Position numbers and translations under genes: made by a program. Below are positions 9,884 through 33,406 of a stretch of DNA of 64,000 nt, piece after piece (the first letter of the stretch is position 1; every line of letters begins with the position of its first letter). Where the stretch lies: positions 2,501-66,500 of the forward strand of contig JAKACW010000008.1 of NCBI GenBank assembly GCA_021821045.1. The letters are read 5' to 3'. The notes beneath the pieces were generated by a model. That model saw only the letters and a list, made by a program, of their open reading frames with translations. It searched no databases and was not told the origin of the DNA. Source of the DNA: Pseudomonadota bacterium (GTDB taxonomy: Bacteria; Pseudomonadota; Gammaproteobacteria; JAADHS01).

Positions 9884-10906
9884 TTAACGAATAGACTCGG
9901 GTGCTGCTTGCGAACGATCCGGAACTGTTGATTGTGGTTCGATCCAAGTAACCCAGACATAATCCGCCACCGCCACCAATTCCTCAGCAGTCAGGACGTT
10001 TTGCCAGGCTGGCATGGTCGTGCCGGGAAGCCCCTGCGCGATGACATCAAGCAAACCGTCGCGCGTGATCCGCGCGCGGAATTCCTCACTGGAAAAGTCG
10101 CGCGGGTGAGGCTGCAAAAAGCTGCCAATCCAGTTTTTGCCCGTCCCGTCCGCGCCGTGACAAAAAGCGCAGTTATCGAGAAACAACTGCTCGCCCCGTG
10201 CGCGCGCTACCGCGGGCGAAACCGGCGCGACGTCATGCTGAGCATAGGGCGTTGCGCCCGACACCGCATCAACCTCATTTTCAACTTCGGCGGCGCGGTG
10301 ATCGTACATCCCCCGCGGAAAGGAAATGGATCGCCGATTCCAGATGTCCGCCGCGCTGGCATCCCGCGCGCGATCATGACAGGTTATGCAGGCCGACATG
10401 TAAAGCTTGCGTCCCTCCCGCTGCGCGGGCGTCAGCGATTCCACCGCCACATCCAACGACAGTTCGCCGCCGACAAAGGGAAACGCGGCGCTGTATCGCT
10501 CGTGATTGGGCCAGCCATTGGCCGCGGTGTGGTAACGGGTTGCTTTGCGTTCTCCGCCCATGAATTCGGCACGCACGAAGTCCACCACCGCGCCGATGTC
10601 ATCCGCCGTCAACACAGACGAAAATCCCATCATCGCCGTACCCGTCTTGCCGTTGGTCACGGCTTCAACCATCGCCTCCCGGCTGAGACGCTGCGGGTCG
10701 GTCGCGGTAAACGCGCGCGGCGGCGGAGACAAATACGTGCTGGCCACCGTCTTGGCATCGCCGCTGTAGCCGTGGCAGAAATAGCAGCGGTAATTGTAAA
10801 TATCGCGGCCGCGTTCATACGGCGTTGTGGCTTGGGAGCCGGCCGCAATGGTCACCGTGGAAGGAATTGCATCCGGCGTGGCGTCAATCGACGCCGGCTC
10901 AGTCAA
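9884..10906 (-). CDS. Triheme c-type cytochrome, distal half of a split hexaheme protein
   Basis: 340 residues with three CXXCH motifs: CYFCH, CITCH and CAFCH. Domains one and three match the cytochrome CBB3-like repeat seen in the gene just upstream (PPPRAFT..., KTGTAMMGFSSVLTADDI; distal Met in the TAMM stretch). The middle domain is degenerate. It has no signal peptide; the only start is TTG at 10906, which overlaps the upstream stop. A c-type cytochrome needs export for haem attachment, so independent expression makes little sense. It most likely is the C-terminal half of one protein joined by a -1 shift at the A9 run in 10912-10920, or is separated by a homopolymer sequencing error. Confidence 0.85.
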   Translation of the reverse strand: MTEPASIDATPDAIPSTVTIAAGSQATTPYERGRDIYNYRCYFCHGYSGDAKTVASTYLSPPPRAFTATDPQRLSREAMVEAVTNGKTGTAMMGFSSVLTADDIGAVVDFVRAEFMGGERKATRYHTAANGWPNHERYSAAFPFVGGELSLDVAVESLTPAQREGRKLYMSACITCHDRARDASAADIWNRRSISFPRGMYDHRAAEVENEVDAVSGATPYAQHDVAPVSPAVARARGEQLFLDNCAFCHGADGTGKNWIGSFLQPHPRDFSSEEFRARITRDGLLDVIAQGLPGTTMPAWQNVLTAEELVAVADYVWVTWIEPQSTVPDRSQAAPESIR

Positions 10907-11967
10907 TTGGCTTTTTTTTTACTCGCGTCGGCGCTGATGAAGGCCTGAAACACATATTCGGCCACGTCGGCGATCTGCTGGGGCTCCAGAACCTTGCCCC
11001 ATGCCGGCATCACCGTTCCCGTCTTGCCTTTCGTTATGGCCGAAAACAATGCGGGACGATTAAGTGACTCGCGCGAACGCGGATCGAGAAAATTGCGGGG
11101 TGCGGGACGATTAAATTGCGCCCGAGGGCCTTGGCCGTCTCCGTTCTTCCCGTGACAGGTGAAGCAGTTGGATTGATAAAACACCTCGCCCTTCGACGGA
11201 TCACCCACGAGCCCGCTGGGCATTGCCGCGTTCATGTCGACAGGCACCGCAGCGGCAGGCGGTGGCATTGCCGCGCCGGCATGCGGACTGTGTGATGGCG
11301 CCCTATTTGCGGTCATCGCCTTGCCTAAGAACGTCCCACGAACATAGTCGACGACGATCTCGATTTCATCGGCGGTCAGTCGATCGCTGAACGACATCAT
11401 CGCCGTTCCGGGTCGACCATGGGTCACCGACGTCAGCATGCGCTCGCGAGTCAACTCGCTCATCGCCTGGGCGGTAGTGAAATCCCGGGGCGGCGGATTC
11501 AAACTCGATATCGTCCACATCGCGCCGTTGCCGTCGTCGCCGTGACAGACGGCGCAATTGCTGACATACAACTGCTGGCCTTGCGACCGGCGCAGCATGG
11601 CCGCGTCGACGGTGACATCTTCCTTGATCATGAAGTTGTCTCGAATGTAATCGACAACGGCCGCGATTTCCTCGCTCGACAGGCGCGGCTCAAACGCCAT
11701 CATGGCCGTGCCGGGCCGGCCCTTAGACACCGACGCCAACATGCGGGCCCTATCCAGCTCGGCTCGCGCAACCGGCGTGGTGAAATCCCGCGGCGGTGGA
11801 TTCAACCCGCGCCGCGCTCGGGTCATGGCATCGCCACGATCGCCATGACACACGGCGCAGTGTTCCTTGTACAGCGCCGCGCCGTCGGGCGTTGCCGCGA
11901 CAGCCGCCGCCGTTGAAAGCCACAACAACACGACTGGAATTATCAAGAGGCTGATCGCTTCACGCAT
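10903..11967 (-). CDS. Triheme c-type cytochrome, proximal half with signal peptide
   Basis: 354 residues. Signal peptide MREAISLLIIPVVLLWLSTA, then three tandem cytochrome domains with CAVCH, CAVCH and CFTCH. Each is followed by a PPPRDFTT-like strand, a RPGTAMM-like distal-Met loop and a SSEEIAAVVDYIR-like C-terminal helix. The repeats are clearly internal duplications. The start at 11967 is set by the signal peptide; an open frame continues 45 codons upstream but has no export signal. The last codons are AAA AAA AAA GCC AAT TGA and run into the next cytochrome gene (-1 frame). Likely a periplasmic electron carrier. Confidence 0.9.
   Translation of the reverse strand: MREAISLLIIPVVLLWLSTAAAVAATPDGAALYKEHCAVCHGDRGDAMTRARRGLNPPPRDFTTPVARAELDRARMLASVSKGRPGTAMMAFEPRLSSEEIAAVVDYIRDNFMIKEDVTVDAAMLRRSQGQQLYVSNCAVCHGDDGNGAMWTISSLNPPPRDFTTAQAMSELTRERMLTSVTHGRPGTAMMSFSDRLTADEIEIVVDYVRGTFLGKAMTANRAPSHSPHAGAAMPPPAAAVPVDMNAAMPSGLVGDPSKGEVFYQSNCFTCHGKNGDGQGPRAQFNRPAPRNFLDPRSRESLNRPALFSAITKGKTGTVMPAWGKVLEPQQIADVAEYVFQAFISADASKKKAN
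10912..10920 (-). other. A9 homopolymer at the junction of two cytochrome frames
   Basis: On the coding (minus) strand nine A follow AGT at the end of the upstream cytochrome frame. In the -1 frame the run is preceded by a stop (TAA) and continues AGC CAA TTG ACT straight into the downstream frame. Either -1 ribosomal slippage, RNA polymerase slippage, or one missing A in the assembly would fuse the two. Confidence 0.7.
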
Positions 11968-12353: not shown

Positions 12354-13091
12354 ATGCTACGGACAACGTTAAAAACAATCCTGGGCGCGATGGTGGCCCT
12401 GTTCGTGTTAGCCGCCGATGCGGGCACGATTTTGGGCACGAAGCATGATTTCACCGGCCTCAATCGACGAGTAGGCGTTGTGGCCATGTCGGGGGTGGCA
12501 TTTTCCGACTACGGTTCACCCTGTGTTTATTGCCACATTCCGCCTGAGAAAGAGGGCGCCGACACCGGTGACAAAGGTGGCATTCCGGGCTGGAATCGCT
12601 ATATCCCCGCCTCCACAACCTACGATCTGTACGACAGCCGAACGCTGGATAACAAAGTCAAAACCCCCAGCCCCATTAGCCTGCTGTGCCTGTCGTGCCA
12701 CGACGGCACCATGGCTGTCGACATGACCGTGTTCAAGCCCGACGCGTTCAACAGCGCCGAGGACGCCGCCCTCCACCTGCGAATCAACGGCGCGGATACC
12801 TTGATGAACTGCGGCAAGTGCCATAACGGCCAGGCTGCGCACAGTATCGAAATCAAACACCTGGGCACCGATCTGCAAAACGATCACCCCATCTCCATGA
12901 CCTACGCCGGCTTGACCCACAAGGATCCGGACTTTTGGCCGCCCGACGGTCCCTACGGCTTCAACAACGGGGTCAAGCTTTACGAAGGCAAAGTCGAATG
13001 CGCGACCTGCCACAACGTGCATAACCCAGATATAAACTTGCTGTTGCGCGAGACCTCTGACCGGCTTTGCGAAACGTGCCATATCAAATAA
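12354..13091 (+). CDS. Pentaheme c-type cytochrome (doubled-CXXCH type)
   Basis: 245 residues with an N-terminal signal peptide (cleavage near residue 22) and five haem motifs: CVYCH, CLSCH, CGKCH, CATCH and CETCH. Seven other His (for example TKHDF, NDHPIS, CHNVH) allow bis-His ligation. The opening GTKHDF, the NDHPIS motif and the ending CETCHIK are shared with the 11-haem (NTKHNF, NDHPIS) and tetraheme (NTKHNL, NDHPIG, CLTCHAK) cytochromes of the 37-52 kb cluster, so it is a paralog. An NHL lipoprotein follows, as in that cluster. Periplasmic or cell-surface electron carrier; partner unknown. Confidence 0.92.
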   Translation: MLRTTLKTILGAMVALFVLAADAGTILGTKHDFTGLNRRVGVVAMSGVAFSDYGSPCVYCHIPPEKEGADTGDKGGIPGWNRYIPASTTYDLYDSRTLDNKVKTPSPISLLCLSCHDGTMAVDMTVFKPDAFNSAEDAALHLRINGADTLMNCGKCHNGQAAHSIEIKHLGTDLQNDHPISMTYAGLTHKDPDFWPPDGPYGFNNGVKLYEGKVECATCHNVHNPDINLLLRETSDRLCETCHIK

Positions 13092-13142
13092 CCCGTGGAA
13101 AGAAGCGCCAGGCGCGCCTCGGCGGGACTGACAACGACCAAC

Positions 13143-14213
13143 ATGCGCAAAACTAGGCGTTATCCAACAACGTCCGCGATTGCTTGCGTGGGACTTGCGG
13201 CGTGCGGCTTACTCCTGGGCGCATGCACCACCACGCCGCCGCAAGAACCTGTTCAGGATATCGTCTACCCCCCGCCGCCGGCGGACCCTCGCTACCGTTT
13301 CGAACGCAGCTTGCGATTCAGCAGCAATGTGCAGCTTCCCACGGCCGCGGACAAATTGAAGAAGTTTGCCACCGGCGAATCCACCGAATTCCAGGGGCTC
13401 GTCAAGCCGTTCGATGTCGCGGTCTGGCAAGGCCGCGTGTATGTCACGGACTCCGTGCAGAACCGCGTTGTCGTTTTTGATATCCCCGGTGGCCGTTACT
13501 TCGAGTTTGGGCTCGAAGAACCGGGAGCGTTGAGCAAACCGCTCGGCATTGATGCCGGACCCAGCGGCGAAATTTATGTCATCGATGCATCCGCCAAGCG
13601 CATCCAAATCTATAATGCCGACGGGCAGTTCCTGCGCTCGATTACAAGAACAGGCTTGTTCCACCGCCCATCGGATGTCGCCGTCGACGCGGTCCGAGAT
13701 CGCATTTACGTCGTTGACACCGGCGGCGTGGAAAGCGACCAACATGGCGTGCATGTTTTCGCCCTCTCGACAGGGGAGCACCTCCGCACCCTCGGCAGCC
13801 GCGGCGAACAGGATGAGCAATTCAACCTTCCGCTGCAAATCGCGGTCGGTCCCGACGGCGCCGTCCATGTCGTCGACGGCGGCAATTTTCGCGTCGTCAC
13901 CTATGATGCGGACGGCCGCTTCCGGTCAAAGCTGGGCAAACTCGGACGTTATCCCGGACAATTCGCCCGACCCAAGGGCATCGCCGTGGACAACGGAGGA
14001 CGCGTCTATGTCGTCGACACCGCTTTCGGCAATTTTCAAATCTTTTCCACCGAAGGCGAGCTGTTGCTGTTTGTCGGTCAACGCGGTCAATCCAGCAAAC
14101 CGGGGAACTATATGTTGCCGTCCGGGATTGACGTGGATGAACAAGGCAAGGTCTATGTCGTCGACCAGTTTTTCCGAAAGGTCGACGTCTACACGCCGGT
14201 TGTGCAACCCTAA
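13143..14213 (+). CDS. NHL-repeat beta-propeller lipoprotein
   Basis: 356 residues. Lipoprotein signal with lipobox LLLGAC (C28), then repeated NHL blades such as GEIYVIDASAKRIQIYNADG and GRVYVVDTAFGNFQIFSTEG, about six, making a propeller. The N-terminal YPPPPADPRYRFE motif matches WPQPPETPRFRYV in the NHL lipoprotein at 42449-43525. The start at 13143 is chosen because it gives a proper lipoprotein leader; a GTG at 13095 is the alternative. It lies 51 bases after the pentaheme cytochrome and is likely co-transcribed. NHL propellers usually bind protein or ligand and have no enzyme motif here. Its end overlaps the convergent GGDEF-EAL gene by four bases. Confidence 0.88.
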   Translation: MRKTRRYPTTSAIACVGLAACGLLLGACTTTPPQEPVQDIVYPPPPADPRYRFERSLRFSSNVQLPTAADKLKKFATGESTEFQGLVKPFDVAVWQGRVYVTDSVQNRVVVFDIPGGRYFEFGLEEPGALSKPLGIDAGPSGEIYVIDASAKRIQIYNADGQFLRSITRTGLFHRPSDVAVDAVRDRIYVVDTGGVESDQHGVHVFALSTGEHLRTLGSRGEQDEQFNLPLQIAVGPDGAVHVVDGGNFRVVTYDADGRFRSKLGKLGRYPGQFARPKGIAVDNGGRVYVVDTAFGNFQIFSTEGELLLFVGQRGQSSKPGNYMLPSGIDVDEQGKVYVVDQFFRKVDVYTPVVQP

Positions 14214-31783: not shown

Positions 31784-33406
31784 ATGGAAGAGCTGCGCCT
31801 TTACCTCATCTGGCAAACCCCCTGGCTCGGCATCGCCGCCGCGCTGGTGCTGGGCTTGCTGTACGCTCTGCGCGCGATGCACCGATCCAAGTCGTCGTTT
31901 GCCGCCCCCGTGAACCGCTCGCTCGTTGCTACACAGGCAACCGATCGCCATCGCCATTTTTTTCCCGTGGCTTGGCTGTGCGCGGCGTGCGCGCTGGGTT
32001 CACCGATATTGTCCCGCGAGGACTCGGCACCCTCCGCCAGCCGGGTGCGGGACGTTGCCCTGGTCGTCGACATCTCTCCGTCCATGGCCTTGAGCGACGT
32101 TGCTCCCACGCGCCTCAAGCGCGCGCAATGGAAAATCGAACAACTCACTCAAAACGCCGCAGCGACCCGTTTCGGCTTGATCGCGTTCTCCGCCAATGCT
32201 TACGTCGCCTTGCCGTTGACTGTCGACACGGCGGCCATCACCCAGTTTGGCAACGCCCTCGATCCGCAGATGGTCGCGCGCAAGGGATCGAATTTACCGC
32301 GCGCCCTGGAACTCGCGGCGCGCCTGTTGACGGAGTCCGCCAATCACAGCCGAGCCATCGTCGTGTTTTCCGACGGCGACGTTGATCCTGCGCTTGCCCT
32401 GACACCGCTGCAGGCAAACATCCCGATCATTGCCGTCGGCATCGGCACGACCAGCGGTGCGCCGGTCATGACCTCTAGCGGCCAAACGCTGCTCGAGGGC
32501 GGTCAGGCGGTCATATCGCGCCTGAACCGCGACGCATTGCGCGATCTTGCCCTCGCGAGCGGCGGGTTCTACCAAGACGCCGCGACCGATGACAGCGACA
32601 TGCGCCAAGTAAACGCATGGCTAAGCGAACTCGCCGCACGGCAAGCCGTGGTCACGCCGCGCAAGAGCGACCTTGCCCTTGCACCGCCGCTGTTGGCCGC
32701 AAGCGCGGTGCTGTTTATGCTGGCGCAGTTCGGACTGCCGCGCCGAGTCACGCGTGCCGGCGCCATCGCTCTGGCTCTAACCGCGGCCGAACCGGCCCAC
32801 GCCGCGCCGTGGTCGGAATTGCTCGCCTGGCAAGCTCTGCAACAAGGCGATTACGCGCGGGCACTGGATCACTACGCCGATGTCGACGGCTATGAGGGAC
32901 GCATGGGTCACGGCGCCGCGGCTTATCGACTGGGCGAGTGGCAAGCGAGTTTGACTGCGTTTCAACAAGCGGAAGCCGCGGCGGCATCGAATGAGCAACG
33001 GGCGCGGGCCGCATTCAACCAGGGCAACGCGTGGGCCCAACTGGGCGACATCGACAATGCTGTCGCCGCGTATCGCAGCGCGTTGCGTTATGCGCCGGGG
33101 CACTCTCGAGCCGGCATCAATCTCAACCAACTCACACTGGAAAAGCAGGCCCGCGCCGATAGCACGGGCGAAGCGAACATGCCGACGAGCGGCGAGAGTG
33201 AACCGCAAACCAACGATGGCCGGACGGACTGCGCTCAACCGCCTTGCGCCGCGCCTATCGCCAAGCAATCAATCAGCGGTGTTGTTTCGCCCGGCACAGA
33301 CACTGCTCTAACGCCGAACGCTCCGGTGGCGACACTGCTCCAGCGCCGGTTTTCCCGCCATGACTACCTGGATGGGCTGTCCCGAATCGAGACGCGCCCA
33401 TGGTAG
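31784..33406 (+). CDS. batB: BatB-like VWA protein with C-terminal TPR (BatB-BatC fusion)
   Basis: 540 residues. Two membrane helices near the N-terminus, a VWA domain with intact MIDAS D96-I-S98-P-S100, a membrane helix near 300, then TPR repeats (about 350-450; ARAAFNQGNAWAQLGDIDNAV) and a polar low-complexity tail. The TPR part equals the separate BatC of other operons. The stop overlaps the BatD start by seven bases. Confidence 0.91.
   Translation: MEELRLYLIWQTPWLGIAAALVLGLLYALRAMHRSKSSFAAPVNRSLVATQATDRHRHFFPVAWLCAACALGSPILSREDSAPSASRVRDVALVVDISPSMALSDVAPTRLKRAQWKIEQLTQNAAATRFGLIAFSANAYVALPLTVDTAAITQFGNALDPQMVARKGSNLPRALELAARLLTESANHSRAIVVFSDGDVDPALALTPLQANIPIIAVGIGTTSGAPVMTSSGQTLLEGGQAVISRLNRDALRDLALASGGFYQDAATDDSDMRQVNAWLSELAARQAVVTPRKSDLALAPPLLAASAVLFMLAQFGLPRRVTRAGAIALALTAAEPAHAAPWSELLAWQALQQGDYARALDHYADVDGYEGRMGHGAAAYRLGEWQASLTAFQQAEAAAASNEQRARAAFNQGNAWAQLGDIDNAVAAYRSALRYAPGHSRAGINLNQLTLEKQARADSTGEANMPTSGESEPQTNDGRTDCAQPPCAAPIAKQSISGVVSPGTDTALTPNAPVATLLQRRFSRHDYLDGLSRIETRPW

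Follow-up and report, generated by a model that had tools for sequence, protein, structure and literature searches.

The locus analysed here raises the question of how two adjacent open reading frames, each coding for three haem-binding cytochrome c domains, are expressed when they meet out of frame at a run of nine adenines (A9). The original prediction saw two possibilities: slippage on the run, programmed or transcriptional, would give both a three-haem and a six-haem product; otherwise one A is missing from the assembly. The window, i.e. the whole stretch of DNA analysed, comprises 64,000 nucleotides of a gammaproteobacterial genome of 4.5 Mb in 140 contigs. The pair lies on its minus strand, with the following features:

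10903..11967, minus strand: ORF1, starting with the ATG at 11967 and encoding three monohaem cytochrome c domains behind a signal peptide
11845-11859, 11542-11556 and 11152-11166, minus strand: CXXCH motifs of ORF1
10912..10920, minus strand: A9 run, the proposed slip site (AAA AAA AAA in the ORF1 frame; T9 on the plus strand)
10919..10921, minus strand: -1-frame TAA that shares bases with the 5' end of the A9 run, read from the sequence
10903..10905, minus strand: ORF1 stop codon TGA, where the three-haem product ends
9884..10918, minus strand: ORF2, -1-frame extension with three further haem domains and no signal peptide
10772-10786, 10376-10390 and 10157-10171, minus strand: CXXCH motifs of ORF2

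The split gene and its homologues

The coordinates and the -1 relation of the two ORFs, as read from the sequence, bear out the prediction of a six-haem cytochrome divided between two frames at an A9 run. Its description of the halves is equally accurate. ORF1 has a signal peptide and three haem motifs and ends in AGT AAA AAA AAA GCC AAT TGA, with the stop three codons past the run. ORF2 contributes three more CXXCH motifs; its -1 frame is free of stops from within the run as far as 9884, where it terminates. Since the first bases of the run belong to a -1-frame TAA, the change of frame must fall within the run itself. The earliest possible start for ORF2 in the window is a TTG overlapping the TGA of ORF1, and no signal-peptide-like segment was found after it in the window sequence. 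Both ORFs contain, in addition to CXXCH, regions that score above the curated cut-offs of the Pfam profiles PF13442/PF00034 (Cytochrome_CBB3/Cytochrom_C). In sequence the domains are similar to cytochrome c6/c552, which a moderate-confidence model of ORF2 also matches in Foldseek.

Four relatives recovered at the outset, two from the same family and two from other families of the class, possess both ORFs, with protein identities of 51-60%. In all four, ORF1 has a run of exactly nine A's close to its end and ORF2 lies in the -1 frame, and in two of them (L003 and L005) there is no ATG, GTG or TTG ahead of the first haem of ORF2. An argC-like gene lies downstream of the pair in three of the four. 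A scan of 84,980 species genomes yielded 241 relatives, of which 80 were kept, and further whole-genome searches raised the sample to 137 distinct loci. The largest class, hereafter the slip type, comprises 83 loci, nearly all from metagenome-assembled genomes, in which ORF2 has no signal peptide: 67 have A9, eight have A10, three combine an A-run with G_GGA_AAR and five have G_GGA_AAG only. The remainder are 47 loci whose ORF2 is equipped with a start and a signal peptide of its own, two in-frame fusions and five truncated loci. In this classification a signal peptide denotes a hydropathy call with a cut-off of 1.9 rather than the output of a trained predictor; the maximum after any start codon reaches at most 1.28 in the slip type and is at least 1.96 in the signal-peptide type called by the cut-off. 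One locus (L204), at 1.86, was assigned by eye to the latter on account of its GTG start and hydrophobic N-terminus.

In each of the 83 slip-type loci the ORFs are in the -1 relation and their overlap contains a slip site, and 49 of the loci have no ATG, GTG or TTG within the 75 codons before haem 4. Given the conservation of this arrangement and of the slip site, the lack of a signal peptide in ORF2 and the frequent absence of a start codon, a conserved recoding event very probably makes a joined six-haem protein, as judged from comparative sequence data. Under this proposal a single gene would give rise to two exported proteins. Standard reading would produce a three-haem cytochrome with a signal peptide, ending a few codons past the A9, while in a fraction of expression events a -1 change at the run would let reading continue through the three further haem domains, the six-haem product being exported by means of the ORF1 signal peptide. 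We infer that both the three-haem and the six-haem proteins are produced.

The overlap of TGA and TTG in the window could instead mean that ORF2 is a separate gene with its own start, coupled to the stop of ORF1, and relatives such as Aromatoleum do have ATGA-coupled genes with signal peptides. However, a signal-peptide-like segment is present in none of the 83 slip-type loci, and 49 of these offer no start codon. In c-type cytochrome maturation the haem is attached in the periplasm, so a separate ORF2 product devoid of a signal peptide could not acquire it. Independent translation of ORF2 is therefore highly improbable.

The loci of the signal-peptide type supply a further line of evidence for the joined reading. 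They are found in many Betaproteobacteria and in Magnetococcales (members include Aromatoleum, Azoarcus, Herbaspirillum, Rhodoferax and Magnetococcales), and several have ATGA overlaps. Homologues with a signal peptide on the second half had been named beforehand as evidence against slippage; 47 loci do have them, but none of these has a slip site, a pattern that supports the slippage idea. Changes between the slip type and the signal-peptide type number about 3-5 on the unrooted tree, so few that the mutual exclusion of slip site and signal peptide does not amount to an independent-contrast test; in an independent-pairs test the changes were likewise too few to be informative. The homologues also include two natural single-ORF fusions (L131 in G191 and L177 in G420), in which all six haems lie in one frame with no A-run at the junction. 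These fusions indicate that the joined six-haem protein is viable; like the heptamer that replaces the run in one subclade and the lack of stimulators around the A-run, both described below, they go beyond the original prediction.

Two other features of ORF2 homologues with their own signal are of note. At seven loci, several of them betaproteobacterial (L045, L049, L058, L059, L061, L080 and L095), ORF2 begins with a lipoprotein-type signal with a lipobox pattern, and as a separate gene with such a signal the second half may be membrane-anchored. At eight others (L044, L063, L096, L117, L124, L127, L132 and L133) a signal-peptide-bearing ORF2 homologue has no ORF1 partner detected directly upstream.

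Conservation of the A-run

An A-run is present at the junction in 78 of the 83 slip-type loci, as A9 or A10 with a single A8, and the other five have G_GGA_AAG. Only 14 A9 sites exist on both strands of the window's whole 4.5 Mb genome, and such a background makes a chance origin of the A9 at the junction very unlikely when runs of A8-A10 mark 78 of 83 homologous junctions and the heptamer the other five. The 397 kb of the homologous loci contain six other A9/T9 runs, and lysine elsewhere in these genes is encoded by AAA in only 50.5% of cases. The linkers flanking the run on either side differ in length among loci while the run itself is kept, and the protein tree of the slip-type loci spans about 28 substitutions per site in total; thus the run has persisted despite extensive change in the protein and its linkers. 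Examination of the other A9 sites in the window's genome as further slippage candidates found none convincing. One of these (L211; G000:C60, about 33217-33225) lies near the 3' end of an ORF resembling a membrane protein; its in-frame reading ends 15 codons later, and it looks tolerated rather than used.

The same comparison bears on the proposal that one A has merely been lost in sequencing or assembly and that the gene is a plain single ORF. Homopolymers are prone to such errors and most of the genomes are draft assemblies; yet the same run and the same -1 relation recur in independent assemblies from different groups and many families, including a near-finished genome of two contigs (G242, L109), and none of the 78 A-run loci is in frame. 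Moreover, the single-ORF fusions have no run, and the five loci devoid of one nevertheless keep the -1 relation. An error is thus exceedingly unlikely and, in the choice originally posed between slippage and a missing A, the data support the former, with no 'repaired' in-frame run encountered. Phase variation, in which replication slippage within the run would toggle the long form in a population, has in its favour that tracts of A9-A10 can mutate. It predicts the in-frame state in some genomes, against which stand the zero of 78, the A10 loci, where other changes compensate so that the -1 relation is kept, and the subclade with a heptamer, which cannot vary in this manner. We consider it just as implausible as an error, both being rejected principally because no A-run is in frame.

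Decoding at the A-run and at a second slip site

At the A-run loci neither of the usual stimulators of ribosomal frameshifting was detected: anti-Shine-Dalgarno pairing upstream of the run equals that of controls, and the 50 nt downstream fold no more strongly than sequence elsewhere (mean z about -0.4). All three codon phases of the run occur, phase 0 predominating. A length of at least about nine is retained among homologues, with 67 A9 and eight A10 in addition to three runs of A8-A9 accompanied by a second site; a ribosomal heptamer of seven bases would not need nine A's. The lack of stimulators, the mixed phases and the conserved length together favour transcriptional slippage, and the change of frame at A9/A10 is probably due to RNA polymerase adding an extra A in some mRNAs.

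It is also conceivable, though we regard it as rather doubtful, that the ribosome rather than RNA polymerase shifts at the A9, as an alternative or a contributor, through a -1 slip of two lysyl-tRNAs on A_AAA_AAA; the protein outcome would be the same. This heptamer is present in the ORF1 frame of every A-run, a few runs terminate in AAG or AAC, and a related subclade clearly has a ribosomal-type heptamer. Against it are the lack of Shine-Dalgarno enrichment and of downstream structure, the retention of at least nine A's where seven suffice, and the rarity of AAG endings, given that E. coli shifts far less readily on A_AAA_AAA than on A_AAA_AAG (PMC5009743).

The five loci with no A-run (L047, L084, L089, L116 and L169), which form one subclade with a truncated sixth member (L056), keep the -1 arrangement and have no start codon. 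Read in the ORF1 frame, their junction sequence GCC GGG AAA G contains the heptamer G_GGA_AAG, which is also where the frame shifts in the g-t genes of phage lambda. Upstream of the heptamer is a Shine-Dalgarno-like GGAG, at 14 nt in most loci and 11 nt in L047, replaced by GGGG in L169; the mean pairing is -6.5 kcal/mol as against -2.0 in controls. In E. coli G_GGA_AAG is highly prone to shifting, and Shine-Dalgarno stimulators of -1 shifts act at 9-14 nt (PMC5009743). No consistent downstream structure was seen in this subclade, the z statistic given above covering A-run loci only. In these organisms the ribosome would shift at G_GGA_AAG, aided by the upstream element. A C_CCA_AAA in L032 was considered as another second site and dropped, being far from the junction.

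Two loci (L024 and L037) carry both an A-run and G_GGA_AAG; L054, of the same clade, keeps A9 with no heptamer, and L087, elsewhere in the tree, combines A9 with G_GGA_AAA. The G_GGA_AAG loci nest within the A-run part of the tree, with a modest support of 73 for their group, and this nesting suggests that one slip site was handed over to the other, from A-run to G_GGA_AAG. A broader scenario, which we hold to be moderately likely, is that a class-wide, conserved recoding device governs the proportions in which three-haem and six-haem exported cytochromes are made and replaces the start and signal peptide of a second gene, one lineage having passed from RNA-polymerase slippage on A9 to ribosomal frameshifting at G_GGA_AAG with a Shine-Dalgarno-like element via forms with both sites.

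Relation to known systems and genomic context

The closest parallel is dnaX, in which Thermus thermophilus uses transcriptional slippage on A9 and E. coli a ribosomal frameshift at A_AAA_AAG (PMC3711429, PMC5009743). There, as proposed here, a nine-A run or a -1 heptamer with a Shine-Dalgarno stimulator yields a short and a long product within one gene family. However, in both dnaX systems the zero frame gives the long form and slippage the short one, whereas slippage here would give the long form, and the protein is an unrelated, exported cytochrome. In tssM1 of Citrobacter rodentium, transcriptional slippage on an A-run just before a stop similarly produces a longer envelope protein, and both forms are needed (PMC4256274), but there the run is an A11 and the interrupted gene is present in few species, as opposed to A9-A10 across many families. 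Overlapping ORFs with a conserved 9A in the overlap constituted the criterion of purposeful use in the survey of Baranov et al. (2005), which the IS elements share with the present gene; those are mobile elements, and this is a chromosomal cytochrome gene. The 108 genomes of that survey yielded a conserved 9A in seven cases, of which all but one are IS elements (PMC1088944). The g-t genes of virus HCTV-5 use the same G_GGA_AAG shift site (PMC5009743), but the g-t genes of phages and archaeal viruses are unrelated to these cytochromes, in which an upstream Shine-Dalgarno-like element accompanies the site.

The phenomenon is thus of a known type, and no report appears to exist for this cytochrome family: none on slippage or frameshifting in bacterial c-type cytochromes was found in the main text of open-licence papers, although supplementary tables such as the GeneTack cluster lists may include such a cluster undiscussed, and the recoding surveys and review consulted make no mention of these proteins. 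Purposeful conserved slippage in cellular bacterial genes looks rare, and the present gene, if correctly interpreted, would be a case from electron transfer that many families retain. Such a case suggests that a decoding ratio can determine how many haems a cytochrome carries, and that an automatic annotation pipeline would record the long form as a pair of cytochromes, one lacking an export signal. Loci with A9, with both sites and with G_GGA_AAG alone together form a natural series in which to study how recoding mechanisms succeed one another.

Divergent neighbours in the window (12354-14213, plus strand) code for a multihaem cytochrome with doubled CXXCH motifs and an NHL-repeat protein. 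From these adjoining genes we infer a periplasmic or cell-surface electron-transfer module. Neighbours of similar appearance, the Pfam comparison having covered the pair in the window only, adjoin loci of both the slip type and the signal-peptide type.
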